64,000 nt of DNA from Subdoligranulum variabile. GTDB taxonomy: Bacteria > Bacillota > Clostridia > Oscillospirales > Ruminococcaceae. The translations under genes and the position numbers were made by a program. Positions 9,709 through 32,343 of this stretch are shown piece after piece (within the stretch, counting starts at the first letter, position 1; each line of letters opens with the position of its first letter). Location of the stretch: NCBI RefSeq assembly GCF_025152575.1, contig NZ_CP102293.1:1240001-1304000 (forward strand). The letters are read 5' to 3'. The notes beneath the pieces were generated by a model. That model was not told the DNA's origin. It did not search any database and saw nothing but the letters and a program-made list of their open reading frames with translations.

Positions 9709-9748
9709 TAGAGCTTTCCGTGAAAACGTCAAGTAAGGAGTGTGTAAA

Positions 9749-9835
9749 ATGACAAATTACCGTATTTTTAGCCCCCCCCCGATAGCTGACGAGGTCGTTG
9801 GCACATTGCACAAACCCCAAAGGGGGTGCGTGTGA
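9749..9835 (+). CDS. 28-residue coupled ORF containing a nine-C tract
   Basis: A short frame with a good ribosome site (AAGGAG, 8 bases before the ATG) and a stop that overlaps the next start as TGATG. The coupling argues that ribosomes do travel through it. Codons 9 to 11 are made of a run of nine C residues (9772-9780), which gives three prolines. It may be a real small protein, a translational leader for the next gene, or the stump of a longer module. Confidence 0.4.
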   Translation: MTNYRIFSPPPIADEVVGTLHKPQRGCV

Positions 9836-10170: not shown

Positions 10171-10175
10171 AAATA

Positions 10176-11715: not shown

Positions 11716-11734
11716 ACTTAGGAGGAAATACATT

Positions 11735-12046: not shown

Positions 12047-12089
12047 TTTTCAATCCAGATCATCTTTTCGCCCCAGAAAGGATGATTAT

Positions 12090-16386: not shown

Positions 16387-18312
16387 TCAGCGCTCCGCAT
16401 GGTCGGCGGCATCGTTGGCCACCACGACCAGCCCCGCGTAGAACATGGCCGCCCGTTTGCGGTCGCGGGAGAGCTTATAGGGCATCAGCCGCAGCCAGTG
16501 GATGACCTCGTGCATGAGGATGCTGTCCAGCTGGTCGGGATAGCGCCGCCCCAGGTCCGCCATCAGGTCGGCGAACAGGGCGTCGTAGGCCGCCGAGCGG
16601 GTCAGGGCAAAATCAATGTGATTTTCCCGGACGCTGACCCGGGGGGTCATCATCATGAACTCGTAGCCGCCGTGCAGGCTCTGCAGCAATTTGCCGTAGT
16701 CCAGGAAGGGACTTTCGTGCAGATTGCCGGTGTTGGGGTCGATGAGGTACCAACCCTTGTCGTCGGTGCGGCAGATGATGTTCTCGATGGTCAGGTCCCC
16801 GTGGATGGTCGCCACCGGGTCGGCGGCAAAGAGTTTACGCAGCCGGTCGTGGTCAAACAGCCAGGCCAGCTGGTTCAGGTTCCGGTATTCTCTGCCGTTG
16901 ATCCACACGGTGGGATATTCCAGCAGCTCGTGCAGGCCGCGGGCCTCCCGCAGCTTCTGCAGGTTGCCGTCCACCTTCGTGGCAATGTACTTCTCAATGG
17001 TGCCGGGATCGGCGGCCGTGGCCGTGGGGCGGTAGAGCTTCTCCTCCAGGGTGTCCAGCACCCCGTGGAGCACGGCGGCGCTCTTCTCCACCGGGTTGGA
17101 GTGCAGATACCGGAACATTCCCACCGCCTGGGGATCGTAGGTCATATCATACCAGCAGCAGTCGGCGTCCTCCCCGGTGCGCAGGATCTCGCACAGCGGC
17201 AGCCGGTCCTGCTGCGCCCGCAGCCAGTGCAGCTGCTCGGCCAGCTTTTTGCCGTCGGCCCCGAAGGCATATTTGCGGTAGAAGGTCCGGGTCTTGTCCA
17301 TGCAGAGCATGGTGGTGGCGTTGGAACCCGCCGAGTAATCCTGCAGGATGGTGATGTCCTGGTTCATCTGGAGGAACCGGTCCACCCAGGCTTTGTTCTG
17401 CAGCCCGAAATACTGGCTCAGAAAGGCCGCCCGGTCCTGGGGGTCCGCCTGGGGCAGCAGGTTGAGGTAGCTTTCCCCCGCCGGCGCCGCCGCGGTGGCC
17501 TGGTTCATCGCCCCGCGCACCCGCTCGGGCAGCAGGGTGGCCAGCCACATGACCAGCAGCGGCAGCAGATACCAGCTGAGCATCGCCGCACAGGCCGCCA
17601 CCGGCGCCCCGGCCAGCACGCCCCCCGGCAATACCACCCGCAGGTCCCCCGCCGACTGCCCGAACAGCGCGCCGAACACATCCACCAGCTGCATGGGATG
17701 CCCGGCCTCGGTCAGGGCGGCGGCCAGTGCCATGTAGGACCCCAGATAGGCCACCCACATGATGACGGTGTTCGCCGCCAGCCGCACCAGGTTGATCCGG
17801 CGCAGGTCCTTGAAGGTGTTGATGAGGCTCCAGCAGAAGACCATGCCGTCCAGTTTGAGGGTATCGTTGAAGATGCCGCAGACCGCCAGGCAGCCCCGCT
17901 TGATGGCATCCCGGAGCATGACCACCACCACCAGGGCGACGGCCAGCACCACCGCAAAGACGAGATAGATCCGGGCCGCCTGCAGAGCCGCCGTGCCCCC
18001 CTGCCCGGCCAGGGCAAAGGCCGCAAAGCCCAGCGCCACGAACCAGACGTCCAGGAAGCGGTCCATGATGACGGTGGCCAGGGCAAAGCCTACGCCGGAT
18101 TTCATCCGCCGGCCCACGAAGATGGCCCGGAAGAGGTCCCCCAGGTGCAGCGGCAGCAGGGTATTGATGGCATAGCCGCCGGCCATGCCCCGCAGCATGG
18201 TGCCGCGCTGGGGGCGCTCATAGATACGCACAAACTGTTCCCAGCGCAGCAGCCGGAAGGCATGCCCGGCCAGCACCAGCAGGATGGCGAGAAGCAGATA
18301 TCCCATCATCAT
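16387..18312 (-). CDS. Fusion: LPG-synthase-TM/UPF0104 flippase-like domain and APH-like kinase
   Basis: A 641-residue two-domain protein. Residues 1-265 form about seven membrane segments with the signature of the lysylphosphatidylglycerol synthase membrane domain (RWEQFVRIY at 23-31, LLPLHLGDLFRAIF at 52-65), as in AglD-type proteins. Residues 300-641 form a soluble kinase of the aminoglycoside/choline phosphotransferase fold, with Lys347 in FYRKYAF, the catalytic HGDL and Asn (504-511) and the metal-binding LIDPN (523-527). It overlaps the nucleotidyltransferase gene start-to-stop (ATGA). A kinase that phosphorylates a sugar or alcohol and a partner that then makes the nucleotide derivative would be a logical pair. 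The joining of a flippase-like domain to such a kinase is unusual. Confidence 0.8.
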   Translation of the reverse strand: MMMGYLLLAILLVLAGHAFRLLRWEQFVRIYERPQRGTMLRGMAGGYAINTLLPLHLGDLFRAIFVGRRMKSGVGFALATVIMDRFLDVWFVALGFAAFALAGQGGTAALQAARIYLVFAVVLAVALVVVVMLRDAIKRGCLAVCGIFNDTLKLDGMVFCWSLINTFKDLRRINLVRLAANTVIMWVAYLGSYMALAAALTEAGHPMQLVDVFGALFGQSAGDLRVVLPGGVLAGAPVAACAAMLSWYLLPLLVMWLATLLPERVRGAMNQATAAAPAGESYLNLLPQADPQDRAAFLSQYFGLQNKAWVDRFLQMNQDITILQDYSAGSNATTMLCMDKTRTFYRKYAFGADGKKLAEQLHWLRAQQDRLPLCEILRTGEDADCCWYDMTYDPQAVGMFRYLHSNPVEKSAAVLHGVLDTLEEKLYRPTATAADPGTIEKYIATKVDGNLQKLREARGLHELLEYPTVWINGREYRNLNQLAWLFDHDRLRKLFAADPVATIHGDLTIENIICRTDDKGWYLIDPNTGNLHESPFLDYGKLLQSLHGGYEFMMMTPRVSVRENHIDFALTRSAAYDALFADLMADLGRRYPDQLDSILMHEVIHWLRLMPYKLSRDRKRAAMFYAGLVVVANDAADHAER

Positions 18313-19061
18313 TCCAGCGCCTCAAAATCCGCGTCGTGGGCAGGAGCTTCGGCGGCACGGTATTCCTCCGGCGTGCCGAAGGGCAGATGCAGATCGGTGG
18401 CAAAGCCCTGCACCGCCGCACCGTGGGCCGCCAGCACGTTGTAGATGCCCGACACAAAGAATTCCTTGTACTGGCAGGCATGCAGGTACTCGGCACAGGC
18501 GTCGGCGTAGGTCTTTTTGTCCTTGAAATAGTAGGCGCCGCAGATGGCGTCGTGGCTGACCACCTGTTTTTCCACCGTATGGCAGACGTTGCCGTCAGCG
18601 CCGTACTGCAGATAGCTGTAGGCCGGGGAATCGCTCGGGAAGGTCAGCAGCGCCCCCGCCGGGCCGTCGGCAAAGCGGCCGTCGGCGCAGAACCGGTTGA
18701 AGGACCGGCAGACAAACAGATGATCGCAGTCGTTGAAGAGCAGCGGTTCCCCGTCGGGCAGGCCCTCGGCCCCCTTCAGCGCCGTGATGGCCGCCCCGGC
18801 CGTAACTTCGGGCAGGGCGATGATCCGGGCGTCGGGCCAGCAGCGACGGATCTTTTCGTCGATGGCAAAGTCCCGGATGTGCTCCTCCAGCACCACAAAG
18901 GTCAGGTCGGCGCAGTCCACGAACTTTTCCACGCTGCGCGCTGCCCAATAAAAGAAGGGTTTGCCATGGATTTCGATCAGCGGTTTGGGGCAGACGAAGC
19001 CGTTTTCAAAAAAACGGCTGCCACGGCCCGCCATGGGCAGGATCAGATGCAGTTTGGACAT
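18309..19061 (-). CDS. Sugar or alditol nucleotidyltransferase
   Basis: A 250-residue enzyme of the NTP_transferase fold. The N-terminus has the nucleotide loop LPMAGRGSRF (9-18) followed by PKPLIEI with the catalytic lysine. The middle has the metal-binding NDCDH, and later comes GAYYFKDKKTY. It should join a phosphorylated sugar or similar compound to a nucleotide for use by a transferase in this cluster. The substrate is unknown. It overlaps the kinase fusion downstream by four bases, which suggests consecutive steps. Similar proteins are common in capsule clusters. Confidence 0.8.
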   Translation of the reverse strand: MSKLHLILPMAGRGSRFFENGFVCPKPLIEIHGKPFFYWAARSVEKFVDCADLTFVVLEEHIRDFAIDEKIRRCWPDARIIALPEVTAGAAITALKGAEGLPDGEPLLFNDCDHLFVCRSFNRFCADGRFADGPAGALLTFPSDSPAYSYLQYGADGNVCHTVEKQVVSHDAICGAYYFKDKKTYADACAEYLHACQYKEFFVSGIYNVLAAHGAAVQGFATDLHLPFGTPEEYRAAEAPAHDADFEALE

Positions 19062-19082: not shown

Positions 19083-20111
19083 TCAGGCGTTGTCCCGGGC
19101 AGCCAGCATTTTGCATTCTTCCTCGATCACACGGGCAAGCCCGGTCTCGATGTCCACCTGGGGCACCCAGCCGTAGGCTTCCCTGGCGTGGGCATTGTCG
19201 CAGAGGCTGAACTTGTTCACCTCATGGTCCAGAATCTCCGGCTTGATGCCGTAGGCCCCGCCGTACAGTTCGGGATACTTGGCCCAGTAATGGCTGGTGG
19301 GGCAGTATTTGGCCTCGATGTCCTTGCCCATCAGCCGGCAGGCGGTGGCGTAGAGTTCCCGTACCGAGTAGCTCTGGTTGCTGGACACGTTCACCGCATC
19401 AAAGCCGGGCTGGGGCCGTTCGACGACCCGCAGGGCCAGGGCGATGAGGTCATCCACATAGATGTAATCCCGGCGCTGGTTGCCGTCCGAGTGGAATTCC
19501 GGCGTGCGGCCGTAGTACAGTTCCCGGATCATATACCCCACAAAGGGCGGCTGCTTGCGCAGGCAGTCGATGTGAGGACCGTAGACGTTGGCAAACCGCA
19601 GGCAGGTCACCGTCATGCCGTAGGTGTCGGCGAAGCTCTGGCAGAACCGCTCGCCGCAGTACTTGGTGTTGGGGTAGATCAGCGTGGGGGTGTGGAAGGA
19701 AGTCTCCACCGTGGGGAATTCCGTCTCGTTCTCATACATGGCGTTGGTGGACGCCTGCACCACCTGCTTCACGCCGGTGCGGCGGGCGCACTCCAGCAGA
19801 TGCACCAGGCCCAGGGTGTTCACCTCCACCGCCTGCACGGGATCGCTCTGGCAGTCCGGCAGCGGCGCGATGCCCGCAATGTTGTAGACCACGTCGAACT
19901 TTTCCGCCTCGAACAGCGCCGGGATGGCCTCCCGGTCGCGGATGTCCATCCGGCGTACTTCCGGCCCGAAATCGTGATCCTCAAATTTCAGGTTGTCCAG
20001 GTTGCCGTAGGAGAAATTATCGATGCCCACGACCTCATCGCCGCGCTTCCACAGCGCATGCCACAGCTGACCGCCGATGAACCCGGCAGCGCCCGTTACC
20101 AGAACTTTCAT
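19083..20111 (-). CDS. NAD-dependent epimerase/dehydratase (extended SDR)
   Basis: A 342-residue extended short-chain dehydrogenase. It has the NAD site TGAAGFIGG (7-15), an acidic residue at the end of the second strand (GIDNFSYGN), and the catalytic Tyr and Lys in YPNTK near residues 146-150 with a preceding Thr/Ser region (QASTNAMYEN). The middle part, RDYIYVDDL, is typical of UDP-glucose 4-epimerase relatives. It probably makes the sugar nucleotide used by this cluster. The exact epimerisation or dehydration is not clear from sequence. It is 12 bases from the GT2 gene. Confidence 0.85.
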   Translation of the reverse strand: MKVLVTGAAGFIGGQLWHALWKRGDEVVGIDNFSYGNLDNLKFEDHDFGPEVRRMDIRDREAIPALFEAEKFDVVYNIAGIAPLPDCQSDPVQAVEVNTLGLVHLLECARRTGVKQVVQASTNAMYENETEFPTVETSFHTPTLIYPNTKYCGERFCQSFADTYGMTVTCLRFANVYGPHIDCLRKQPPFVGYMIRELYYGRTPEFHSDGNQRRDYIYVDDLIALALRVVERPQPGFDAVNVSSNQSYSVRELYATACRLMGKDIEAKYCPTSHYWAKYPELYGGAYGIKPEILDHEVNKFSLCDNAHAREAYGWVPQVDIETGLARVIEEECKMLAARDNA

Positions 20112-20990: not shown

Positions 20991-22736
20991 TTATTCCGCC
21001 CAGCCGTCCACCACGAGCACCTGCAGGCTGGCCGTGCCGTGGAGGACGGTGTACCGGTCGGTGATGGCAAAATGTTCCTCCAGCCAGGCATGGAAGGCGT
21101 CCATATCCCGCACCTCGGCGTCGTCATAGAGGATGACGTCGGGGAGTTTGTCGGGCATAAGGGTGTAATATTCCTCGAAGCGGGGGTCGCTGTCGGTGCC
21201 CGAGATCACCGAGGCCTGGGCCACTTTCAGGGTGCCGTCAGCCATCAGGAAGCCCAGGCCGTGCTGTTCACCGATGGCCTGCAGCAGCTGTTTGCCCCCG
21301 TAGGGCTGCAGCGCTTCATAGAGACATTCCTGCATATCGGCGGCCTTCTGGTCGGCCCAGATGCCTTTGGCGGGGCCGTTCTCGATCTGGACCAGAGGGG
21401 TGTCGGTGATGTCGGCGGGTTTCCAGCCCACCGTCTGCACCAGCCACAGCCGGCAGGCCACCAGGTAGAGCAGCAGGGTACCCAGCACCGCCAGGGGCAG
21501 CAGCCGCACGGCGGGGCGCCGCAGCGCCAGCGCCGCCACACTGCACAGCGCCGGCCAGAACAGATACATGAAGGTGGTGGGCAGCGAGGTCAGGGTGGAG
21601 CGCAGGATCATCAGGTAGGCCGCCACCCCGGGCAGCCAGCCCAGCCAGAACAGCAGGGTGCGCGCCGGGCGGCCCTCCCCGCAGCGGCGGTCCAGCCAGA
21701 AGGTCACGCCGCCGGCCACGGTGGCCGCCAGATACATATGGCGGAAATCCAGGTTCTCATCCTGCAGACCGTACTGGGTACAGCGCAGCGCCAGGCAGGC
21801 CACAAACACCCAGAGCAGCCGCTCGGCCAGCCGGGCCGGGGCGGGGCGTCCCCCCAGGCAGGAAAGCGCCGTGACCACCACGGCCGCCAGACCGGGCCAG
21901 GCCATGAACCGGAGCATGGTCACCGTCTGGCTCAGCAGCACCTGTGCCCGCTGGGCGGGGGTGAAGTCGTACTGGGGATCCTCCAGCACCAGCTGCACCC
22001 GCTGGAGGAAGGCGCCCGGGTCAAAGTCCATGCCCTGCAGCACCCACAGCAGGAACGCGACGCCGCAGACGGCGCAGCTGCCCGCAAAGACCAGCGCGCC
22101 CCGGGGCACCGGGCCCAGCCGGGGTTCCCCGCCGCGGCGGCCCAGCAGCACCATCCCCAACAGAAACACCGGCGCCGCGGCCACACTCTGGGGATAGGCC
22201 AGGAAACTCAGGCAGGCGCACACCGCCCCTGCCGCCACCCGGGCCGGGGTGCGGTACTGCCGGGGACCGGGGGCATAGTAGCCGTACCAGCACAAAAAAG
22301 CCGCCAGCGTGTAGTGGAACTGCTGGCTGACGTAATCGGGGCCGAGAAACCATTTGGGGGTGAAAGCCAGCAGCAGGAGCGCCCCGATCCAGGCCGCCGG
22401 TCGGCCCAGCGCCCCGCGCAGGCTGCGATAGAACCAGAAGCTCAGGGCAGCCTTGAGGGCCAGCATCACCACCCGGACAAAGAGCAGCAGGCCGGTGGTG
22501 GTACCGGTGACCGCCAGGAAGAGCGCCACCAGCGGTGCAGCCGTCAGGGCGCTGAGCTGGTGGGGTTCCCACATGGTCTCAAAGAGCCGGTCGCCGCTGA
22601 CCAGCCGGAACCCCAGGGACAGGGCATATTCCTCGTCGATCTCCAGTCCCACGAAAAGGCTGCGCAGCAGCGCGGCCGCGGTCAGCAGGGCGGCCGTCAC
22701 CGCCGCCGTCCGTCGGACCATCGGCTTTTCCGTCAT
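20991..22736 (-). CDS. Polytopic membrane glycosyltransferase, GT-C-like
   Basis: A 581-residue protein with about 12 membrane segments. The first outer loop has VGLEIDEEYALSLGFRLVSGD, where the acidic pair is in the place of the GT-C catalytic acid. A C-terminal soluble part of about 150 residues follows the last segments. Such proteins take sugars from polyprenyl phosphates on the outer face of the membrane. I prefer the ATG at 22736 because AGGAGG lies 10 bases before it. The ATG at 22745 is only one base away from the same ribosome site. Confidence 0.7.
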   Translation of the reverse strand: MTEKPMVRRTAAVTAALLTAAALLRSLFVGLEIDEEYALSLGFRLVSGDRLFETMWEPHQLSALTAAPLVALFLAVTGTTTGLLLFVRVVMLALKAALSFWFYRSLRGALGRPAAWIGALLLLAFTPKWFLGPDYVSQQFHYTLAAFLCWYGYYAPGPRQYRTPARVAAGAVCACLSFLAYPQSVAAAPVFLLGMVLLGRRGGEPRLGPVPRGALVFAGSCAVCGVAFLLWVLQGMDFDPGAFLQRVQLVLEDPQYDFTPAQRAQVLLSQTVTMLRFMAWPGLAAVVVTALSCLGGRPAPARLAERLLWVFVACLALRCTQYGLQDENLDFRHMYLAATVAGGVTFWLDRRCGEGRPARTLLFWLGWLPGVAAYLMILRSTLTSLPTTFMYLFWPALCSVAALALRRPAVRLLPLAVLGTLLLYLVACRLWLVQTVGWKPADITDTPLVQIENGPAKGIWADQKAADMQECLYEALQPYGGKQLLQAIGEQHGLGFLMADGTLKVAQASVISGTDSDPRFEEYYTLMPDKLPDVILYDDAEVRDMDAFHAWLEEHFAITDRYTVLHGTASLQVLVVDGWAE

Positions 22737-22754
22737 CTTGCCCATGCCTCCTCT

Positions 22755-23615
22755 TCAGCGGGTCCGGGGCGGGTCCACCCGGCGGCGCAGCAGCGTGTCC
22801 CGCGCCCACCACAGATAGGGCAGCCAGTTGAGGCAGAAGGCCTCCCACTTGCGCTGCAGATAGTTCTGCCGCCGGCCCTGCTGCCGGACCGCGCTCATAT
22901 CGATATAGTGCGATTTCTGCAGCACCCGGATGGCCTCCTTGCCGGTGGGGGTCTCCTCCGGCGTGCAGTACTCGGGGGGCAGGATGCGGAACCGTTCCGG
23001 GCACTCCGCCACCAGCCGGTTGAGCTGGCTCTCGTCATGGCAGCGGGCGATGATCCCCCGCTGCAGATCCTCGTCGGTGCGGGCTTTCAGTTCCCGGCAC
23101 ATCTCCAGGAACGCCCCGCTGGCACCGCCGTTGATGCCCCCCGCCACATAGTAGGTCCCGCAGTTGTAGGGGATGCCGGCACGGCATTTGCGGCGGCGCT
23201 CATAGGGATGGAAGATGGGGTTGCGCCCGTAATAGGGCAGATGGCAGACCACCGTCAGCTCCTGGCCTTTGGCGGCGTCGGGCAGCAGCTCCCCGGCGGT
23301 AACGTCCCGCAGGCAGTGCAGATTGGCGTTGGCAAAGAACAGATAATCGTAGTCCGCCAGTGCCTCGGCCTGGCTCAGAAACGCATCAAAGCGCTGCATC
23401 GTGCTGTAGGGCCAGGGCAGCGCCTCCTGCTGGAAGCGGCGCACATCGGGCTGGTCCTCATAGTCGATGGAGGCCGCGTCGGTGAAGACGAAGAAGGTGC
23501 GGTCGCAGTCCGGCAGGAAATGCTGCCGGAAATTGGGATAGAAGTCGTGCCAGAAGACCTGGTAGGCGCCGGTGCAGAGATAAAGCACCGCCACACGGAT
23601 ACGGGATTCACTCAT
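22755..23615 (-). CDS. Glycosyltransferase family 6 (ABO-type), bacterial NXN form
   Basis: A 286-residue protein that matches the histo-blood-group transferase family in order: YLCTGAYQVFW near residue 12, WPYSTMQRF (68-76), the sugar-nucleotide site FFANANLHC (93-101), YYVAGGINGG (155-164) and HDESQLN (193-199). The NAN at 96-98 replaces the DXD of animal enzymes, as in known bacterial members, which are independent of metal. The residues equal to 266-268 of the human enzyme read AGG; a glycine at 268 is the A-type (GalNAc) state, so alpha-1,3-GalNAc transfer is the better guess. The gene overlaps the flippase gene stop (ATGA). Acceptors of this family normally carry alpha-1,2-fucose. Confidence 0.85.
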   Translation of the reverse strand: MSESRIRVAVLYLCTGAYQVFWHDFYPNFRQHFLPDCDRTFFVFTDAASIDYEDQPDVRRFQQEALPWPYSTMQRFDAFLSQAEALADYDYLFFANANLHCLRDVTAGELLPDAAKGQELTVVCHLPYYGRNPIFHPYERRRKCRAGIPYNCGTYYVAGGINGGASGAFLEMCRELKARTDEDLQRGIIARCHDESQLNRLVAECPERFRILPPEYCTPEETPTGKEAIRVLQKSHYIDMSAVRQQGRRQNYLQRKWEAFCLNWLPYLWWARDTLLRRRVDPPRTR

Positions 23616-25135
23616 GATTGTTTCCTCCTTGTCTGCAGGATGCGCAGCGCGTAGCTGCGCAGATAGGCGGCATCCGTCCCCCAGGCGTAGACCGCCAGGT
23701 TCAGGGCGTTGGGCAGCAGGCAGACCACCACGGCCCGCAGCACCAGCCCGGCGATGCCGCCGGGCAGCAGGCTGCAGACCGCCGCCGTGCCCAGCATACA
23801 GACCGCCAGGGTCACCAGGTGCAGTGCCTGCATGCGCAGGTAGTGGGCCTCGCTGCCCTTCATATAACAGCGGAAGACCACCCGGATGCGCCCGCCCCAC
23901 ATGATGCAGTGGGCCACCACGGTGGCCGCCAGGGCGCCGCTGATTCCCATGAGGGGGAACAGGATAAAGCTCAGCGCCAGGTTGACGGTAGCGGAAGCCA
24001 CCATGAACCACTGGTCCTCCTCAAAATGGCCCAGCACCGCGCGGTAGGACCCGAGCATGCGGTGGTTCCAGCCCACATATTCGTTGAGGCAGAACGCCAC
24101 CAGGAAGCTGGTGGGCAGCAGCCACTGTTCCCCCATCCACAGCAGCATGAAGGGCTGGAACAGGCAGAAGTAGGCGGTGGCCACAAAGCTGCCGAAGAAA
24201 TAGCTGAACAGGTCCATGCTCCAGAAGACCTGTTTGTCGTGGTCGTTGGCGGTGGCCGTCTTGTCGTAGACGATGTTGCCGATGGCCGCGGCAAAGCTGT
24301 CCATGATCTTGTTGCCGATGTTGGTGGCGCTGTCGGCGATGCCGGTGTAGTTGCCCAGCTCGGTGGTGCGGGTGGCGCCGCCCATGCTGGAGGTGACGAT
24401 GGTGTCCGACGAGCCGTAGATGGTATTGGACAGCCGGTGCACCAGGTAGTACCGCAGATCGTGGAAGATGCCCAGTTCCTTGAAATCGGCCAGGGTGACC
24501 GGGACGTCCCGGACCCGGGGGAAATCCCGGCGGTACCGCCAGGCGATGACCAGGTTGGCGCAGACGTTGAAGACGATGGTGACGCTGAAATACAGCACAT
24601 AGTTGGGCCACCACAGCGACACCGCGATGCGGGCCAGATAGTTGAGCACCGTGCAGACCATATCGATGCGGGTGCACAGATAGCCCTGCTGGGTGCAGGT
24701 GTACATGAGCCGCCGGGTGATGAGGAAGTAGCTGCACAGCGTGGAGATGGTGTTCAGGCCATAGACGGTGTAGCCGGTCTGCAGCGGCACGTCGGGCATG
24801 ATCCAGGGCAGGGCCGCGGCGCCGATAAGGGCCAGCAGGGCGATGGCCAGCCCCACCACGCGGTAGGCCCATTTGTACATCGACATGTATTTGCTGATCT
24901 TTTCATCATCCCGGGCGGCGATCTGCTCGTACAGACGGTAGCTGATGACACTGCCCACGCCGAACTCGGCGATGGAGAAAAAGTTGAAGAGTTTTTCCAC
25001 CACCTGGGAGGCGTTGGTGATCTCGGGGCCGAAATTGTAGACCAGCAGACGGCGGGTGACCAGCCCCAGCAACAGAAGCAGGAAGCTGGACGCCAGGGCG
25101 TAGGCCATATTGATCAGGGTACGTTTGGTTCGCAA
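23612..25135 (-). CDS. Wzx-like polysaccharide flippase (MOP superfamily)
   Basis: A 507-residue membrane protein with about 14 hydrophobic segments. It begins INMAYALASSFLLLLLGLVTRR, the usual opening of lipopolysaccharide and teichoic-type flippases, and has VEKLFNFFSIAEFGVGSVISYRLYE soon after. It should turn the lipid-linked repeat unit across the membrane. The start is a TTG with AAAGGAT upstream; an ATG at 25108 is the alternative. It sits in the centre of the cluster between transferases. No separate Wzy is obvious, so one of the GT-C-like proteins may fill that role. Confidence 0.85.
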   Translation of the reverse strand: MRTKRTLINMAYALASSFLLLLLGLVTRRLLVYNFGPEITNASQVVEKLFNFFSIAEFGVGSVISYRLYEQIAARDDEKISKYMSMYKWAYRVVGLAIALLALIGAAALPWIMPDVPLQTGYTVYGLNTISTLCSYFLITRRLMYTCTQQGYLCTRIDMVCTVLNYLARIAVSLWWPNYVLYFSVTIVFNVCANLVIAWRYRRDFPRVRDVPVTLADFKELGIFHDLRYYLVHRLSNTIYGSSDTIVTSSMGGATRTTELGNYTGIADSATNIGNKIMDSFAAAIGNIVYDKTATANDHDKQVFWSMDLFSYFFGSFVATAYFCLFQPFMLLWMGEQWLLPTSFLVAFCLNEYVGWNHRMLGSYRAVLGHFEEDQWFMVASATVNLALSFILFPLMGISGALAATVVAHCIMWGGRIRVVFRCYMKGSEAHYLRMQALHLVTLAVCMLGTAAVCSLLPGGIAGLVLRAVVVCLLPNALNLAVYAWGTDAAYLRSYALRILQTRRKQS

Positions 25136-25139
25136 GGTC

Positions 25140-26138
25140 TTATCCTTTCTTGAGGCAGGCGGCCGCCCACAGGGCCAGCCGGGGACCGCAGAGGCGCATC
25201 AGCGTCTGGAACAGCCGCCAGTCCCGGCGGGTGCGCACCTGGATGCCGCGGGCGTAGAGCGGCCGCAGCGACTTGAGGCAGGGCAGGCAGCGGCGGCGCA
25301 CTTTGGCGTCACGCACGGCGGCGGTGCGTGCCTGCGGCCAGAAGACGTCGGCAAAGGCGTCCTCCATGCAGCGGTAGACTTCCGGCGTGACCCGGCCGGT
25401 GGCCTGCAATGCCGCCAGATGCCGCTGCGCCGCCGCCAGCGAGGAGAACCGCCGGGGCAGATTGTGGGGATCGGTGAGCAGACTGCCCTGCCGCCCCACC
25501 CGATAGTGGGTGAAGACCAGGTCCAGGAAGTACAGGCATTCACATTCGTTGAGCAGCGTCAGGATGAACAGGCAGTCCTCAGCCCAGCTCACGTCCCGGC
25601 GGAACCGCACCCCGGTCCCCAGCAGAAAGCTGCGCCGCAGGCAGTATTTCCACACCGCCCAGTGGGCGGCGGTGTACAGCGCGTGCAGCCGCTCGCCGTA
25701 GTCGGTGCTGTCAAAAGGGCCGGGCAGCAGCCGCTGGCCGGTGTGCTCGGTCAGGGAGCCGTCGGCCTGCCATTCCAGGTGCCGGCCGATGAACCAGTCG
25801 TACCCCGGATGGGCCGTCAGTTCCCGGCGCAGCGCCGCCAGCAGTCCCGGCGCCATGGCGTCGTCCCCGTCCAGGAAGAGCAGCCACTCCCCCGTCGCCG
25901 CACGGATGCCCGCATTGCGCGCCGCCGACGGCCCGCCGTTTTTCCGGTGCAGGACCTGCACGCCGGGGATCTCCGCCGCAAAGGCATCGCAGAGCTGGGG
26001 GGTCATGTCGGTGGAACCGTCGTCCACCAGCAGGCACTCCCAGTCCCGGGGGCCTTCCTGCTCGGCCACGCTCTTGATGCACGCCGCCAGATAATTCTGC
26101 ACGTTGTACACCGGAATGATGATGGAAAACAGCGGCAC
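25140..26138 (-). CDS. Glycosyltransferase family 2
   Basis: A 332-residue GT-A transferase. It starts at a GTG with AAGGAGG upstream and opens PLFSIIIPVYNVQNYL. The nucleotide site is VDDGSTD (near residues 37-43), then KNGGPSAARNAGI and the metal motif FLDGDD (near 86-91). The C-terminal half is Arg-rich and helical and may touch the membrane. It is of the WaaB/CpsI-like group that adds one sugar to a repeat unit. It is placed between the flippase and the fucosyltransferase genes. Confidence 0.88.
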   Translation of the reverse strand: MPLFSIIIPVYNVQNYLAACIKSVAEQEGPRDWECLLVDDGSTDMTPQLCDAFAAEIPGVQVLHRKNGGPSAARNAGIRAATGEWLLFLDGDDAMAPGLLAALRRELTAHPGYDWFIGRHLEWQADGSLTEHTGQRLLPGPFDSTDYGERLHALYTAAHWAVWKYCLRRSFLLGTGVRFRRDVSWAEDCLFILTLLNECECLYFLDLVFTHYRVGRQGSLLTDPHNLPRRFSSLAAAQRHLAALQATGRVTPEVYRCMEDAFADVFWPQARTAAVRDAKVRRRCLPCLKSLRPLYARGIQVRTRRDWRLFQTLMRLCGPRLALWAAACLKKG

Positions 26139-26160
26139 GGCGGCCCCCTCCTTTCGCGGT

Positions 26161-27078
26161 TTATCGGGTTTCGATAAGATGCCAGCCGGGCTGGTACAGC
26201 GCCGTCTGTTTGGTGTGGGCAAACCAGCGGTCGGGCGCCCAGACGGTGCGTCCCTCCCCCGCCAGATACTGCGCCCACCAGCTGTAGGTGGAATTGCTCA
26301 GGATGAATCCCCGGCACAGGGCCATGAGATTCAGGTCCCCCACCGCATCCCCCCGGGGCATCCAGACGGCGGGCAGGCCCGCGGTGTCCAAGTGTTCCTT
26401 CGCCCAGTCAATGTCGTCGGAAAAGACAAAAAGGGTCGCCTCCGGATATGCGGCGGCCGCGGCGGCCGCCGCCCGGGCATAGTAGGCCGGGCTGCAGACC
26501 TGCAGGATCTCGTTTTCGGGACGGCAGTAGTCCCCCCGGCGCAGATGCAGCGCCACCGGGCAGGCCGCAGCGCGGATCTTTTCCGCCCACACCCCCGCCG
26601 GGGCCTGCTTCGCCCGCAGTTCTGCCCGGATGGTGGGGGCAAAATCCGCAAAGTAGGCTTCACTCTGGAAATAGCCCCAGGCCAGGAAATCTCTGGCCGG
26701 GCCGCGCCGCACCGGAGTGTAGCCGTCGGTGGCAAAGTGCAGCCCCAGCAGATTCAGCACCGGGGCGCAGCGGCGCTCCCAGTCGTGCCAGTCCCGGGCC
26801 ATCAGCCCCTGGCGCTGCTCGTATTTGATCATCAGCGCCTTGGCGGTGTTCTGCCGGGGCAGATGCCGCTTGGCAAACCCCGGCTCCGCCAGGATCTTCA
26901 CCTCCGGGACCAGGTTCAGCCCCTCCAGGGCGCAGGCCGTGTGGGCGGGGGCGCCGTCCCGCCAGTCCTGCCGGTCCAGCAGGGTGACCGCCTCGCCGCA
27001 GCGCAGCCCCAGCGCCCGGGCAAAGGCATAAATGAACATCTGGTTGCCCAGCCCGCCGGCCAGTTCCGCGTAGATCAT
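26161..27078 (-). CDS. Glycosyltransferase family 11 (alpha-1,2-fucosyltransferase-like)
   Basis: A 305-residue protein with the three marks of GT11: GGLGNQMF at 8-15, the GDP-fucose-binding HLRRGDY at 178-184, and SNSTYSWWAQYL near residue 275. It should attach L-fucose by an alpha-1,2 link, usually to galactose. This is the H-antigen type of structure, the substrate required by GT6 enzymes such as the one encoded two genes away. No GDP-fucose synthesis genes are in the window. The start at 27078 overlaps the stop of the previous gene by 4 bases. Confidence 0.88.
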   Translation of the reverse strand: MIYAELAGGLGNQMFIYAFARALGLRCGEAVTLLDRQDWRDGAPAHTACALEGLNLVPEVKILAEPGFAKRHLPRQNTAKALMIKYEQRQGLMARDWHDWERRCAPVLNLLGLHFATDGYTPVRRGPARDFLAWGYFQSEAYFADFAPTIRAELRAKQAPAGVWAEKIRAAACPVALHLRRGDYCRPENEILQVCSPAYYARAAAAAAAAYPEATLFVFSDDIDWAKEHLDTAGLPAVWMPRGDAVGDLNLMALCRGFILSNSTYSWWAQYLAGEGRTVWAPDRWFAHTKQTALYQPGWHLIETR

Positions 27079-28178
27079 CCCTTGCCTCCCAGTTGGTCGT
27101 AGAGTTGTTCCATCCGGGCAGCGGCGGTGTGCAGCTCGTACCCGGCCGCTGCCAGTTCCGCCCAGTGGTCGGCGTGGGGGCCCCGGCCCGCGATGCGGTC
27201 CGCCGTGGCCGCCCATTCCGTCAGGGGTGCGTCCAGCGGCAGAAAATGCACCAGGTCCGTCACCGCGCCGTCGTCGGGCACGTTGGTGGACGCCAGGCAG
27301 GGCACGCCGCAGCCCTGGGCCTCCACCAGCGTGACGGGGCTGCCCTCAAAGTTGCTGGGCAGCAAAAACAGGTCAAAGGCGTTCATGTAGGCGGGCACAT
27401 CGCTCTGGACCCCCGCAAAAATCACCCGGTCGGTCAGGCCGTGCCGGGCGGCAGCGGCCCGCATTTCCGCCTCCATCTCGCCGGTGCCCACCAGCAGCAG
27501 TTTCCAGGCGGGGTCGGCGGCCATCGCCGCGAACACCTCCATAAGGAACAGCGGATTCTTCTGGTGGTTGAGCCGCCCCACAAAGCCCGCCAGCCGGTCG
27601 GTATCGGCGATGCCGTACCGGGCGCGGGTGGCGGCCCGGGCCGCAGCGTCGGGGTAAAACCGCCCCTGGTCCACGGCGTTGCAGGCTACGGCAAAGTTGG
27701 GCCTGCGGTCGATGTGGTCGCCGAAGACGAACCGCCCCGCCGCCACCCCGCAGCCCAGGAAGTAGTCGGCAAAGAGCTGGTAGACGCCGTGGGCCGCCCG
27801 CCAGGTCAGCGTCATGGGCGGGTAGACGATGTGGCTGTGCACGATGATCTTCGCCCGGGGGCAGAGCAGCCGCATCATGCCGCAGACCGGCGCGCCGATC
27901 TTGCTGGCGGTGTGGTAGTGGATGATGTCGTAGTCCTTGTGGGTGCGCAGATGCCGCCACAGGGCCCGGATGCGGTCCCTCTTATGGTCGGGCACCGCCA
28001 GGATGCGCACCCCTCTGGCCTCCAGGGCCGGGGCGGTGCTGGCCTGGTCGGGGGGACACTGCCCCACAAAGAGGTCCACCTGATACCGGGTGGTGTCCAG
28101 GTGGAGCAGCAGATTCTGCACATACCGCTGCACGCCGCTCTGCACGCCCAGGTGGTTGCTGATCATCAGAATGCGCAT
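27075..28178 (-). CDS. Glycosyltransferase family 4
   Basis: A 367-residue GT-B enzyme. The N-terminal domain starts MRILMISNHLGVQSGVQRYV and holds the acceptor region with HYHTASKIGAPV and VHSHIVYPP. The C-terminal domain has GFVGRLNHQKNP for the sugar nucleotide and the EGSPVTLVEAQGCG motif, where the two glutamates are typical of retaining GT4 enzymes. It closely resembles EpsF/CapM-type transferases of exopolysaccharide clusters. The ribosome site is AGAGGAG. It overlaps the fucosyltransferase gene. Confidence 0.9.
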   Translation of the reverse strand: MRILMISNHLGVQSGVQRYVQNLLLHLDTTRYQVDLFVGQCPPDQASTAPALEARGVRILAVPDHKRDRIRALWRHLRTHKDYDIIHYHTASKIGAPVCGMMRLLCPRAKIIVHSHIVYPPMTLTWRAAHGVYQLFADYFLGCGVAAGRFVFGDHIDRRPNFAVACNAVDQGRFYPDAAARAATRARYGIADTDRLAGFVGRLNHQKNPLFLMEVFAAMAADPAWKLLLVGTGEMEAEMRAAAARHGLTDRVIFAGVQSDVPAYMNAFDLFLLPSNFEGSPVTLVEAQGCGVPCLASTNVPDDGAVTDLVHFLPLDAPLTEWAATADRIAGRGPHADHWAELAAAGYELHTAAARMEQLYDQLGGKG

Positions 28179-28195
28179 GCCGTCTCCTCTTTCCT

Positions 28196-29101
28196 TTACC
28201 AGTAGCTGCCGCCCTCCACCGTCTCCCGGTGGGCGATGCCCTCGTTTTCCGCCGGGCGCACCCAGGCGTCGTTGTACAGCCGGGAGATCACCGGGTGGGT
28301 GTCCCAGCGCTTGCCTTTGATGCCGAAGAGCAGCTGGGTGGCGCCGCTCATCTGGATGGCCGTGTGGCCGGTGTCCCGGGCGTGGGCCGCCAGGGGCAGG
28401 CCGTAGGCCCCCGCCCCCACGATGGCCACCTCGTAGTCGGCGGCGTCCATCTGGGCTTCCATGGCCGCCAGGGCGTCGAACCAGCTGGCGTAGCCGGTGT
28501 CCTGCCCCGCCAGTCCCTGCACCGCCCGGATGACCGTGAGGCTGCCCAGTTCCGGCAGCACCCCGGTGCCGGGGAAGAGCCGGGCCCGCTTTTCGTACTG
28601 GCGCAGGATGGTATCCCGGAAGGGATGGACCACCAGCACCTTTTTGCCCGCCAGGGCGCTGCTCCAGGGCTGTGGATGGTAGTAGGGCTCCAGCGCCCGG
28701 AGTTTGCAAAACACCGTGCCCTGGCAGCCCCGGATGACCTCCCGCTCCGCCCCCACGTCCCAGAGGGCCAGCAGGTCGGCGCTTTGGGCGCAGGATACAT
28801 AGAGCTCGCAGAACCGGTCCAGGGTGGCGTCGTCGGTGGGGAAAACCCCGGACAGGTTGCGGATGTCCTGCCGGGTCCGGTCGGTGAAATGGCCGCCGTG
28901 GGCAAGGCGGTCGGCCACGGTGCGCATCTCGGTGGCGCCGCACCGGGCAAAGAGGAAGGGGCCGCCCCGCAGGATGGCCGCCCGGGCCAGGTCGTTGCCC
29001 GCCTCGGCTTCCAGCACCCGGACGCCCCGGTATTTCCACCCGAAGCGCCAGCCTTTATACAGGTTGCGCGCCGCTTCCAGCAGGGCGTTATCGTTGTCCA
29101 T
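28196..29101 (-). CDS. Uncharacterised cluster protein, possibly of the GT-D fold
   Basis: A 301-residue soluble protein without a family I know well. The N-terminal third has PFLFARCGATEMRTV, similar in shape to the AR(F/Y)GDGE motif of GT-D (DUF1792) transferases, and the C-terminal third has YEVAIVGAGAYGLPLAAHARDTGH, which resembles their second conserved block. The middle has VVHPFRDTILRQYEKRARLFPG. The Asp of the GDGE motif is replaced here (GATE), so the resemblance may be remote. It lies among glycosyltransferases and overlaps the upstream GT4 gene by 14 bases, so a role in building the repeat unit is likely. Confidence 0.5.
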   Translation of the reverse strand: MDNDNALLEAARNLYKGWRFGWKYRGVRVLEAEAGNDLARAAILRGGPFLFARCGATEMRTVADRLAHGGHFTDRTRQDIRNLSGVFPTDDATLDRFCELYVSCAQSADLLALWDVGAEREVIRGCQGTVFCKLRALEPYYHPQPWSSALAGKKVLVVHPFRDTILRQYEKRARLFPGTGVLPELGSLTVIRAVQGLAGQDTGYASWFDALAAMEAQMDAADYEVAIVGAGAYGLPLAAHARDTGHTAIQMSGATQLLFGIKGKRWDTHPVISRLYNDAWVRPAENEGIAHRETVEGGSYW

Positions 29102-30209
29102 GGGCAGCCTCCCGCTTGTTGGGCAGCAGCGTCAGCGCCAGCTCGGCGCTGTTCTGCCACAGAAAATGTTCGTTGATCCGCTTCTGGGCGGCGGCGCCCA
29201 TGGCGTCGTCCACCCGGGCGAGTGCCGCGGCCATCTCCTCCACCGAATCGCAGAGGATGCCGCTGACCCCGTCCTCGATGATGAGGTCGGGTCCCGGGGC
29301 GTGGCGGGCCACCGGCGGACAGCCTGCGTACATGGCCTCCAGCAGGCTCATGCCGAAGATCTCCTGCTCATTGAGGTTCACAAAGGCGTTGCAGGCATGG
29401 TAGTAGACATGCACCGCCGTATTGGGCAGTTTGGGAATGAGCCGGCAGCGTCCGGCCAGCCCCGCTTCCTCCAGGGCGGCGCGCAGGGCGTCCCCCTGGC
29501 TGCCCTGGCCGATGATCACCGCCAGCCAGCCGGGAGCGGCCTTCAGCAGCGGCACCAGGTCCAGCGGCCGCTTGTAGGGATCCAGCCGCCCCACAAAAAC
29601 GAGGATCTTCGCGTCGGGGTCCAGTCCCACCGCCCCCCGCAGCTTGGCCCGCTCGGCGGGCACATCGGGGATGATGGCGGTGTCCAGCCCCACCGGCATA
29701 AGCCCCGCGCAGGGCACGCCCAGGCTTTCCAGCTCGGCGGCCACCGCGGGGGTTTTGGCGTAGGTGGGCGTTTTTTTGTAGATGGCCAGGTTGCGGCGCA
29801 GCAAAAGGTCCATGACAAGGCGCACCGCCTTGTGGGGGGAGGTGCTTTTCAGCGCCCCCAGCTGGCTGTAAAAGAGGATGCCGTGCCGCCGGCAGAACCG
29901 GTAGAGGGAGGGCACCCCGGGGGAGTTGTCCCCCATCACGTGGACGGCGTCCACATGCTCGTCCAGCAGCACCTGCCAGCTTTGGTAGAACGCCTGGGAG
30001 CCCAGGGCGCGCACCGGCAGATAGTAGACTTTCACGTTGGGTTCCGGTTCCTCCACCGTGGGGGCGGCGGCACCGGGGTCGGGGTAGAGCACGATGCCCC
30101 GGGCGCCCAGCGCCGCAAAGGCGCGGGCCAGGCCCACCTCCTGCCGGTTGTACAGGCCCTTGCGGCCCGAAGGCCCGCAGTAAAACTGCGGGATAGCGAT
30201 GGTTTTCAT
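29088..30209 (-). CDS. Glycosyltransferase family 4
   Basis: A 373-residue GT-B enzyme that opens MKTIAIPQFYCGPSGRKGLYN. The nucleotide-sugar domain begins LVFVGRLDPYKRP near residue 205 and has NEQEIFGMSLLEAMYAGCPP near residue 300, with the EX7E-type pair of glutamates of retaining enzymes. The first domain carries VHVMGDNSPGVPSLY. The start at 30209 is supported by AGGTGA upstream, and it overlaps the gene on either side by a few bases. The sugar and the acceptor are unknown. Confidence 0.85.
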   Translation of the reverse strand: MKTIAIPQFYCGPSGRKGLYNRQEVGLARAFAALGARGIVLYPDPGAAAPTVEEPEPNVKVYYLPVRALGSQAFYQSWQVLLDEHVDAVHVMGDNSPGVPSLYRFCRRHGILFYSQLGALKSTSPHKAVRLVMDLLLRRNLAIYKKTPTYAKTPAVAAELESLGVPCAGLMPVGLDTAIIPDVPAERAKLRGAVGLDPDAKILVFVGRLDPYKRPLDLVPLLKAAPGWLAVIIGQGSQGDALRAALEEAGLAGRCRLIPKLPNTAVHVYYHACNAFVNLNEQEIFGMSLLEAMYAGCPPVARHAPGPDLIIEDGVSGILCDSVEEMAAALARVDDAMGAAAQKRINEHFLWQNSAELALTLLPNKREAAHGQR

Positions 30210-31183
30210 GAATTTGTCTTCACCTTTGCAAGATACCGCGCGTCGATGACTTCCAGCTGATCGTCGCGGCAATAGGTGTGAATGCCGATCATATCCTTGG
30301 GATCCAGTCCCTGGATGCGCACGGCGGCGGGCAGCGCCGCGCAGAGCGGCACCTCGGAACTGCCCCGCCGGGCGGAAAACTGCAGATAGACACCGTAATC
30401 CACCGTGGTGCTGACCTGGGTGGGATGGATGACCTGCTCCCCCAGCACAAAGAGGGGCCCGGCGTTGCGGCTGATGAGGTCGAATTCCCGGTGCTGCAGA
30501 TTGAAGGCCTCGTCGGGCAGCAGCTCAAAGGGCTCCCCGGTGGGCTCCGGCGGTTCGGTGCCGGGCAGCGGTTCGGGGGGCTGGACGGTCTTGCGCAGCG
30601 TGAAGCGGCGCCACCGCACAAAGAACTGGTTGTCGGGCTTGGTCTCGCTGCACAGCAGGGTCAGGGCATCGGGGGTGCGGTCCACCAGGATGGCGTCGCA
30701 GAGTTCGGCGTCCACCGCGAACCGCTGCACCAGCTCCCACTCCGCGGGGAAAGCCTTGCAGCGGTAGAGCCGCAGGCTGTGGTCATTGCCCGATTCGGGG
30801 ATCATCCAGGTATCGCCGTTCCAGTCAAAGACCGTGGGGAAGGACAGATGGAAGTCCTCCTCCAGCGCCACCTGCCAGCCCTCGGTGGTGCCGTCGTCCA
30901 GCAGATGGCAGACCTCGATGCGCCCCTTGCCAGCGGCCAGGTCCATGGCCTCGGCAAAGAGATACCGCGCCCCGCCCCGGCGGTAGAGCAGCGGGTCGGC
31001 ATACCAGAAGCCCTCCCGCCCGGGCAGCGGGGTGTAGGGGGCGGCCCCCAGGGCGGGCAGCGGGTCGGCGCCCTCCGCCGTGGGCACCGGCCGCACGGCG
31101 ATGGTGTAGATTTCCTTTTCGCCCGTGAGTTTGCGCAGCAGCCGTCCGGGCGGCATGTGCAGGGCGCGGTAGAGTTGATTCAT
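30206..31183 (-). CDS. Beta-propeller protein, GINT1 N-terminal/glucosidase-43-like
   Basis: A 325-residue soluble protein. The pattern FWYADPLLYRRGGARYLFAEAMD, then GRIEVCHLL, FHLSFPTVFDWNGDTWMIPES and RLYRCKAFP is that of the five-bladed, GH43-like domain found next to some glycosyltransferases (as in the N-terminal part of plant GINT1). The residues usual for hydrolysis cannot be verified here. In polysaccharide clusters such proteins may bind or process the glycan. It overlaps both neighbours by 4 bases, so it belongs to the operon. Confidence 0.65.
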   Translation of the reverse strand: MNQLYRALHMPPGRLLRKLTGEKEIYTIAVRPVPTAEGADPLPALGAAPYTPLPGREGFWYADPLLYRRGGARYLFAEAMDLAAGKGRIEVCHLLDDGTTEGWQVALEEDFHLSFPTVFDWNGDTWMIPESGNDHSLRLYRCKAFPAEWELVQRFAVDAELCDAILVDRTPDALTLLCSETKPDNQFFVRWRRFTLRKTVQPPEPLPGTEPPEPTGEPFELLPDEAFNLQHREFDLISRNAGPLFVLGEQVIHPTQVSTTVDYGVYLQFSARRGSSEVPLCAALPAAVRIQGLDPKDMIGIHTYCRDDQLEVIDARYLAKVKTNS

Positions 31184-32343
31184 CGTTCTTCCTTTGTATA
31201 TAAGCGCAGCAGGGCGCGGTAGTTTTCTTCTTCATTGTAGGTGCGGCGGGCCGCGGCGGCGATGGCACCGCAGTCAAAGGTGCCGGCCAGCAGCGCCCGC
31301 ACCGCCCCCGCCAGGGCTCTGGCGTCGCCGGGAGCAAAGCGCAGCCCGTCGATGCCGGGGCGCACCGACGCCCCCACGTTGCCCAGGTCGCTGGCTACCA
31401 CCGGCGTGCCCAGGCAGTGGGCCTCCGCCGGGACCAGGGCGAAACTCTCGTAGCAGAGGCTGGCCGCCAGCACGCCCTTGCTCTCCGCCATGCAGCGGTG
31501 GAGTTCCGCCGGAGGCAGCTGCCCGAGGAAGGTCACCTGTGCCCCGGCGTGCTCCCGCGCCCAGTCCCCCAGAGGGCCCTCCCCTGCCACCAGCAGGGCG
31601 GGCGCGTCCGCTCCCAGCAGGTCCCAGGCTTCCAGCACGGTGCGCAGCCCTTTCAGTTCCTCCAGCCGTCCGGCAAAGAGCAGCTGGGTTTTCCGTTGGG
31701 TCCAGGGGCGCACCGGCCCCTCCGCCACGCAGACGGGATTGGGCTTGACCACCAGCCGGTCGGCGTCGAACATCGGGCGCTGGTGGTTGAATTCCAGCAG
31801 TTTGCGGCGGTCAAAGTCGGTGAGGGCCACCATGGTGACCCTCCGCCAGGTACCCAGCCGCCGGTGGAGGGCGTAGGCGGCGGCCACCACCATGGTCTGC
31901 GGCAGGCTTCCCCGGTAGCAGCGGTGGCGCACCGCGCAGGAAAGGCCGTGGTGGGGGCAGTCCTCGCAGACCTTGCCCTCCCGCAGCAGAATGCCGTTGG
32001 GGCAGAACAGCCGGAAGTTGTGCAGCGTCTGCACCACCGGCACGCCGCTCTGTTTGGCGGCCCGCACCACGGCGGGGCTGAGCAGCAGCAGCGTGTTGTG
32101 GATGTGAACGGCGTCGGGTTTTTCCCGGGCCATGAGCGCCCGGACCTCCCGGGCGGCGCGGCGGTTCCAGACGGCGTGGAGCGGCAGCAGCAGTTTGGCC
32201 AGGCCATGGGCGGCCTCCTCGTTGCTGCGCTCATACACCACCACGGTGTGACCGTGGCGTTCCAGCAGGGCACGCTCCGCCGCAAAGACGGCATCTTCGC
32301 CGCCGGGCAGGCGGTAATGGCAGTGGATGAGCAGGATCTTCAC
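31180..32343 (-). CDS. Glycosyltransferase family 4, first gene of the polysaccharide operon
   Basis: A 387-residue GT-B enzyme that starts MKILLIHCHYRLPGGEDAV at a GTG with GGAGGAAAC upstream. Residues about 120-150 hold a Cys cluster (CPNGILLREGKVCEDCPHHG, then CAVRHRC) found in a subgroup of GT4 enzymes and thought to bind a metal. The donor domain has LLFAGRLEELKG, and the last conserved block is YESFALVPAEAHCLGTPV. It is the first gene after the promoter at 32384-32412 and so begins the long minus-strand operon. Confidence 0.88.
   Translation of the reverse strand: MKILLIHCHYRLPGGEDAVFAAERALLERHGHTVVVYERSNEEAAHGLAKLLLPLHAVWNRRAAREVRALMAREKPDAVHIHNTLLLLSPAVVRAAKQSGVPVVQTLHNFRLFCPNGILLREGKVCEDCPHHGLSCAVRHRCYRGSLPQTMVVAAAYALHRRLGTWRRVTMVALTDFDRRKLLEFNHQRPMFDADRLVVKPNPVCVAEGPVRPWTQRKTQLLFAGRLEELKGLRTVLEAWDLLGADAPALLVAGEGPLGDWAREHAGAQVTFLGQLPPAELHRCMAESKGVLAASLCYESFALVPAEAHCLGTPVVASDLGNVGASVRPGIDGLRFAPGDARALAGAVRALLAGTFDCGAIAAAARRTYNEEENYRALLRLYTKEER

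Follow-up and report, generated by a model that had tools for sequence, protein, structure and literature searches.

A conserved Gemmiger glycan operon pairs GT11 with GT6 and carries GT6 alleles exchanged between species

A glycan operon with adjacent GT6 and GT11 genes

We analysed a stretch of 64,000 nucleotides from Subdoligranulum variabile (assembly GCF_025152575.1), hereafter the window, which spans bases 1240001-1304000 of a single-contig genome of 3.24 Mb. It contains a glycan operon in which genes for a family 11 fucosyltransferase (GT11) and a family 6 glycosyltransferase (GT6) lie close together. The operon is conserved in most of the genus Gemmiger, and three GT6 classes, differing at donor or acceptor residues, fill the same slot in it and have been exchanged between species. 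The glycan genes adjoin or overlap along the minus strand from ~32.3 to 14.7 kb, an operon-like arrangement that opens with a nine-gene block ending in GT6:

31180..32343, minus strand: GT4 glycosyltransferase (GT4c), first gene of the block (PF13692, 82.9 bits; synteny)
30206..31183, minus strand: GINT1_N-type protein, of the glucosamine inositolphosphorylceramide transferase N-terminal family (PF24793, 80.3 bits)
29088..30215, minus strand: GT4 glycosyltransferase (GT4b), open reading frame (ORF) open to 30272 (PF00534, 92.9 bits)
28196..29101, minus strand: 301-aa protein, syntenic, with a weak GT-D-like match (PF22882, 17.6 bits, below the cut-off of 27)
27075..28220, minus strand: GT4 glycosyltransferase (GT4a) (PF00534, 88 bits; syntenic in relatives)
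26161..27078, minus strand: GT11 fucosyltransferase, 305 aa, HLRRGDY motif (PF01531, 94.5 bits, cut-off 23.9)
25140..26135, minus strand: GT2 glycosyltransferase (GT2a), with an uncertain start and an ORF open to 26222 (PF00535, 120.9 bits)
23612..25135, minus strand: Wzx-like oligosaccharide flippase, 507 aa (PF01943, 29.9 bits, cut-off 28.2)
22755..23615, minus strand: GT6 glycosyltransferase, class I allele (NAN, AGG, CHDES), 286 aa (PF03414, BoGT6a, residue table)

An initial annotation of this DNA had described GT11 and GT6 proteins encoded in one operon between 22755 and 27078, with a flippase and further transferases between them. These coordinates run exactly from the GT6 stop to the GT11 start, the two intervening genes encode the GT2 and the Wzx-like flippase, and both family assignments hold above the Pfam cut-offs. 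The GT6 protein, whose ATG lies at 23615, scores 59.9 bits against PF03414 (cut-off 25), placing it in CAZy family GT6, and 227.4 bits against the NCBIfam model Gltr_6, below the cut-off of 250.

The GT11 protein is the sole match to its family in the genome and contains HLRRGDY, which we take to be the family motif. A search by sequence at E up to 1 found no solved relative. Database source names call the enzyme alpha-1,2, which we regard as automatic annotation, and the linkage is putative because the family also holds at least one alpha-1,3 enzyme, HhFT2, according to PMC4202792. A search of the genome for GDP-fucose synthesis genes, proposed with the initial annotation, found gmd at 3.21 Mb (531.5 bits, cut-off 415), adjoined by a 325-aa fcl-like ORF that was named by sequence and place, not by a hidden Markov model of its own. 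A full galE lies elsewhere in the genome (445.6 bits, cut-off 262.3), and synthesis of UDP-N-acetylgalactosamine (UDP-GalNAc) by its product is putative.

Conservation across Gemmiger

Our sample comprised 61 genomes, 35 from Gemmiger and 26 from outside the genus. GT6 was found in 29 and GT11 in 30 of the genus genomes, and both were absent from all 26 others. In 28 of the 29 genomes with GT6, the two genes share a contig and strand at a spacing below 5 kb; in the 29th (G008) they fall on two short contigs. In G004 GT11 is present and the flippase is cut by the contig end. Neither gene was found in G002, G017, G023, G027 or G028, of which G027 is 99% complete. GT6 is rare in the wider samples, occurring in 6 of 297 genomes of the family, five of them in the genus, and in 2 of 391 genomes of the class, the window included. 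The copy in G297 has two internal TGA codons.

We fetched 30 operon loci (L038-L067), and in 22 of them all nine genes from GT4c to GT6 occur in the same order. Among the remainder, G003 has its GT2a match beyond GT6 on the far side, G006 is missing the GT2a match, the genes before GT4a differ in G011 and G025 (LPG_synthase_TM and nucleotidyltransferase), and in G021, G004 and both loci of G008 the block runs off the contig. The gmd gene scores above its cut-off in 28 of the 61 genomes, 27 of these being genus members; G010, G018 and G022 have GT11 without such a gmd in their drafts, and in G032 gmd is in two pieces. We place the genome of the window in Gemmiger, and its nearest relatives include the cultured strains G. 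formicilis ATCC 27749 and G. gallinarum DSM 109015. Gemmiger is a gut genus, in keeping with the gut commensal that had been predicted for this DNA.

The GT6 active site and its allele classes

The best solved relative of the window GT6 is BoGT6a from Bacteroides ovatus (PDB 4ayj and 4cj8; E ~1e-38), and residue roles were taken from its structures as described in PMC3961637. The NAN motif, which the initial annotation had called metal-free, aligns with Asn95-Ala-Asn97 of BoGT6a in the place of DXD, and the catalytic Glu192 and the diphosphate-binding Lys231 are both conserved. On these residues the window GT6 is assigned to the metal-free NXN type of the family. The AGG triplet aligns with positions 155-157 and is identical to that of BoGT6a, an established A-type transferase, giving the small donor-site residues expected of such an enzyme; the UDP-GalNAc activity published for BoGT6a (PMC3961637) agrees with the earlier proposal that AGG favours GalNAc. 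In our residue table, which leaves out Arg243 and His239, the window enzyme also keeps Thr10, Tyr13, Trp66, Thr70, Arg73, His122, His190 and Asp191. It differs from BoGT6a in having Ser for Asn69, Tyr for Phe125, His for Phe133, Pro for Thr134 and Cys for Trp189, and in its C-terminal stretch.

Two of these changes fall in the substrate pocket. In BoGT6a His122 and Thr134 contact the GalNAc product and the residues from Trp189 to 192 are key for substrate binding and catalysis, as given in PMC3961637. The initial annotation had proposed an A-type transferase acting on an H-type unit. Its donor half agrees with the AGG site; its acceptor half fares less well, His122 being kept but Thr134 and Trp189 replaced, and because the pocket differs from that of BoGT6a, use of an H-type acceptor (Fuc-alpha-1,2-Gal) is putative. 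The donor side would thus fit GalNAc, and the pocket appears unlike that of a textbook ABO enzyme.

For comparison we took the best 80 of 155 loci with GT6 relatives, 27 of them from Gemmiger and 53 from elsewhere, and all further statements on non-Gemmiger enzymes refer to this set. Of the 53 non-Gemmiger loci one was unreadable, and Trp189 is kept in 49 of the other 52 enzymes; two of the remaining three have Tyr and one has Ile. The equivalent tryptophan presumably touches the acceptor in mammalian GT6 enzymes. Pro134 is also common elsewhere, being found in 24 of the 52. The donor triplets of the same enzymes include AGG (16), MGG (10) and CGG (8), together with x-G-A/S/C types (IGA, YGA, QGA, QGC, QGS, FGA and MGS).

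The 29 operon GT6 enzymes of the genus fall into three classes. Class I, found in nine genomes including the window, has Pro134 and AGG, with Phe (6), Cys (2) or His (1) at residue 189 and Trp in none. One class I enzyme, from G010 (L060), is unlike the other 28 in having Asp122, His189 and EGG, the single EGG among the 29. Class II (five genomes) has His122, Pro134 and AGG and keeps the tryptophan, which is also kept in class III (15 genomes), where it is accompanied by Gln122, Ser or Thr134 and SGG, the triplet of all 15. Among cultured strains, G. formicilis ATCC 27749 carries class I and G. gallinarum DSM 109015 class III. The ratio of nonsynonymous to synonymous substitution (dN/dS) is 0.08-0.33 in nine same-class GT6 pairs; for GT4a the pair G007-G015 gave no ratio, and that comparison was dropped. 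The range of donor triplets among the 52 non-Gemmiger enzymes might allow users of GalNAc and of galactose (Gal) donors to be told apart by sequence.

Exchange of GT6 alleles between species

Downstream of GT6 the operon continues on the minus strand, and the segment that has been exchanged extends into its next gene:

21300..23900, no strand: exchanged segment relative to the near relative G026 (nucleotide identity falls from 84-97% to 58-74%)
20991..22745, minus strand: probable membrane protein, 584 aa, no family, adjoining GT6 and inside the exchanged segment
20124..20918, minus strand: GT2 glycosyltransferase (GT2b) (PF00535, 48.1 bits)
19083..20111, minus strand: NAD-dependent sugar epimerase/dehydratase (SDR) (PF01370, 176.7 bits)
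18309..19061, minus strand: nucleotidyltransferase (PF12804, 27.2 bits, cut-off 27)
16387..18312, minus strand: LPG_synthase_TM membrane domain protein (PF03706, 63.5 bits)
14721..16355, minus strand: DUF6020 membrane protein (PF19484, 39.9 bits)

We compared 29 genomes gene by gene, using pairs in which the operon core is at least 85% identical. In these pairs GT6 identity averaged 89.8% within a class (19 pairs) and 51.6% between classes (8 pairs), while GT2b stayed at 94-95%. Between the window and genomes G026 and G034 the core is 93% identical and GT6 51%. In 300-base sliding steps against G026, identity is 84-97% below 21.3 kb, 58-69% over 21.3-23.6 kb, intermediate (73-87%) through the flippase and GT2a, and 83-96% from 27 kb on.

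Every class forms one clade in the GT6 tree, yet the classes are scattered on the core tree, which was built from five genes with 27 rows, 26 of them with a class. An extra class III GT6 of G006 (L076), which has none of the 17 window genes except GT6 beside it, was left out of the class trees. The core tree needs 7 class changes, where the least possible is 2 and shuffled labels average 11.7. Approximately unbiased (AU) tests on the GT6 data reject grouping of the window with G026 and G034 (p 2.3e-31) and of G005 with G016 (p 1.3e-53), and those on the core data reject monophyly of class I (p 1.5e-37), even when it is restricted to five nearer members (p 1.9e-8); these p-values are optimistic because the groups were picked after the trees and identities had been seen. 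G012 and G006, both metagenome-assembled genomes (MAGs), are 94.7% identical over 5.6 kb, from part of the SDR gene to part of the flippase gene. In 300-base steps their identity is 94-100% over a stretch that begins inside SDR and runs to where GT6 ends; three other aligned pieces are at 75-79%, and this exchange seems recent.

Linkage of GT6 and GT11 outside Gemmiger

By their titles, the 53 non-Gemmiger loci come from Lachnospiraceae, other Clostridia, Helicobacter, Chitinophagaceae, Patescibacteria and others. We scanned up to 10 kb of flanking sequence with a GT11 profile made from genus sequences and database relatives, and found a match near GT6 in 24 of the 27 Gemmiger loci and in 43 of the 53 others (42 of them over 50 bits). 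In 33 of the 53 a GT11 lies on the same strand within 2 kb of GT6, start to start. Loci that we counted as Clostridia by title, 1xD8-48 among them, have GT11 in 15 of 19 cases, and several of the 11 non-Gemmiger loci without it have cut flanks. As a rough base rate, 14 of 390 genomes of the class, the window's own not counted, have a GT11 above its cut-off anywhere; the contrast is large but, the samples being unmatched, indicative. Bacterial GT6 and GT11 thus likely serve one product in most cases, as steps of a shared pathway. With 42 of 53 loci linked across many phyla, a shared substrate is the best guess, and the product would then be ABH-like in a broad sense.

Second GT6 locus and neighbouring genes

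The window genome contains a second GT6, of a fourth class, at G000:C1:2260347-2261000 (L001:1477-2322), 1.0 Mb from the window GT6. Class IV (8 enzymes) has His122, Thr134, Trp189 and a CGG donor site, so that in this genome it is the second-locus copy that keeps all three pocket residues. Its neighbours encode an ABC exporter ATPase, a GtrII-type protein and GT2 enzymes, and no GT11 was found in the 18-20 kb read around class IV GT6 at 8 loci in eight genus genomes. We considered this locus, at 2.26 Mb, as an alternative source of A antigen and set it aside on its CGG donor site and lack of GT11.

The 584-aa protein beside the operon GT6 has no Pfam or NCBIfam match. A database search with an E limit of 0.001 gave 920 relatives, and among the 120 listed none carries a Pfam domain. 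The five PDB rows returned in a search for solved relatives are all antibody light chains with E of at least 0.16, which we took as chance. An alignment of 17 genus members has an invariant GLEIDE stretch at the start, and EPHQL; the first loop may be GT-C-like. The gene was not found in 11 of the 30 loci; in four of these the contig stops at that point. In same-class pairs with a core of at least 85% identity it diverges faster than its flanks, at 82.1% against 86-96% for other genes. Co-variation with GT6 class was not upheld, since its identity does not track class cleanly.

Further downstream, the nearest NCBIfam model of the SDR protein is galE (TIGR01179, 125.7 bits, below the cut-off of 262.3), and the C-terminal stretch of the LPG_synthase_TM protein is weakly APH kinase-like (PF01636, 19.8 bits, below 23.2). 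The DUF6020 protein has a weak match to Wzy_C only (E 0.027), and some relatives have a DUF6020 copy, 29-32% identical, between the nucleotidyltransferase and LPG_synthase_TM genes. Close to this end of the operon lies a prophage tail region (3317-12842, plus strand), with genes for a tape-measure protein, SPP1 Dit-like and Gp37-like tail proteins, an M23 peptidase and a D12 adenine methyltransferase.

Discussion

We consider it probable that the locus is a conserved glycan operon in which GT11 adds fucose, GT6 caps the product with alpha-GalNAc, the flippase exports it, and replacement of the GT6 segment varies the epitope. The GT4, GT2 and related enzymes would build a lipid-linked oligosaccharide for the surface or for export, to which GT11 would add an alpha-fucose and the NXN-type GT6 an alpha-linked GalNAc (Gal being less likely), either on the fucosylated residue or beside it, before the flippase carries the product across. 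The backbone would stay constant, with GT6 and the adjoining membrane-protein gene acting as a swappable segment. A conserved backbone pathway with variable caps is the pattern of surface-antigen loci, and the conserved block with its replaced GT6 fits it. Because the three classes differ at donor- or acceptor-site residues and replace one another, the outermost epitope probably varies.

Several observations weigh against this interpretation. Genomes of one class tend to sit together on the core tree, none of 200 label shuffles needing as few as 7 changes; the classes are therefore mostly inherited vertically, with several or occasional exchanges. Most relatives are draft MAGs, in which any single exchange could be an assembly chimera; the classes are also seen in the window genome and G026, each a single contig, and in cultured strains, for example G. 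formicilis ATCC 27749. Trp189 and Thr134 are altered in class I, and the class-specific residues may reflect drift within allele lineages, not different specificity. Within the block Pfam recognised neither a polymerase nor a ligase, and no genome-wide search was aimed at a priming transferase; surface display is therefore conjectural. Searches of the literature and of solved structures returned no glycan, assay or structure for any Gemmiger GT6 or GT11.

The initial annotation went further, proposing a true blood-group A trisaccharide (GalNAc-alpha-1,3-[Fuc-alpha-1,2]-Gal) displayed on cells that would bind anti-A reagents. We think this rather unlikely. The AGG triplet identical to that of BoGT6a, the GDP-fucose genes and the linkage of GT11 to GT6 in many taxa argue for it, as does the precedent of E. 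coli O86, in which a GT11 and GT6 pair makes the B trisaccharide (PMC4202792). It has to contend with the loss in all nine class I enzymes of a tryptophan kept almost throughout the non-Gemmiger set, and with the Pro at position 134, though that residue is frequent elsewhere; the beta-Gal acceptor and the GT11 linkage are themselves putative. It is also possible, and in our view unlikely, that GT11 and GT6 act on different residues of the same repeat, with a non-fucosylated GT6 acceptor and no ABH-like determinant. The changed pocket, the GT2 and flippase genes lying between the pair, and the GT6 copies with a canonical pocket that lack a nearby GT11 would all be consistent with this, as would the Gln of class III at the His122 position, which is shared with bovine alpha-1,3-galactosyltransferase in the BoGT6a search alignment; the bovine enzyme is listed with the non-fucosylated acceptor Gal-beta-4-GlcNAc in PMC4202792. 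The repeated GT6-GT11 linkage across many phyla speaks against it, being best explained by a shared substrate.

Two further explanations we regard as highly improbable. A class I GT6 that is decaying or inactive and kept by hitch-hiking could account for the lost, near-invariant tryptophan, but the frame is open in nine genomes, Asn95, Asn97, His190, Asp191, Glu192 and Lys231 are kept, and dN/dS is well below 1 in class I pairs. Ordinary divergence of a fast-evolving segment, without exchange, draws on the 584-aa neighbour, which evolves faster than its flanks even in same-class pairs. It is already disfavoured: same-class GT6 keeps pace with the flanks, classes that are clades by GT6 are dispersed over the core tree, the AU tests agree, the identity edges are sharp, and two distant species share a near-identical segment.

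The operon that we prefer to read as making a fucosylated, GT6-capped glycan has partial counterparts in characterised systems. BoGT6a, which shares family, NAN, AGG and most donor and catalytic residues with the window enzyme, acts on 2'-fucosyllactose (PMC3961637), an activity that is putative for the window enzyme. In E. coli O86 the GT11 WbwK and the GT6 WbnI act on one O-antigen to form a blood-group B determinant, as described in PMC4202792; that system, likened here by description and not by sequence, belongs to a Gram-negative lipopolysaccharide O-antigen and uses a Gal donor. The Gemmiger operon resembles it in joining both enzymes with a flippase in a genome with GDP-fucose genes, and differs in its Bacillota host, AGG donor site, genus-wide occurrence and exchanged GT6 alleles. 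BgtA of Helicobacter mustelae, again likened by description and not by sequence, is a bacterial GT6 that makes blood group A on fucosylated acceptors (PMC4202792), in a different host lineage and on a different surface glycan.

Alternative GT6 alleles at one locus also recall human ABO, and the pattern resembles an ABO-like or serotype-like polymorphism. In the human enzymes GTA and GTB are separated by Leu/Met266 in the donor site (PMC4202792), which probably corresponds to position 155 (A, S or E in the operon alleles). Unlike the ABO alleles, those of Gemmiger are ~50% identical, of the metal-free NXN type, exchanged between species and of putative activity. We tentatively suggest, at somewhat less than even confidence, that the operon is a bacterial counterpart of ABO polymorphism, in which a cassette of GT6 and the membrane-protein gene is swapped, giving related gut species different blood-group-like or new alpha-GalNAc or Gal caps, perhaps under selection by host anti-glycan antibodies, mucus glycosidases or phages.

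Bacterial GT6 enzymes that make A or B determinants were already known (PMC4202792), and a 2014 view held that, with one exception, known bacterial GT6 came from Gram-negative species (PMC3961637). Our searches found no literature joining Gemmiger with glycosyltransferase family 6, an earlier mention in subscription papers being conceivable, and those on Gemmiger, fucosyltransferase and blood group gave, by title, only unrelated matches. In our sample most of a Bacillota gut genus has GT6 beside GT11 in a conserved operon, with exchange of GT6 alleles. Should the products prove new, class I enzymes, whose pocket lacks Trp189, would offer a GT6 of possibly novel acceptor specificity to explore. 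ABH-like products would make common gut commensals a standing and variable source of blood-group-like antigens, which would bear on the origin of natural anti-A and anti-B antibodies and on the binding of viruses by gut bacteria.

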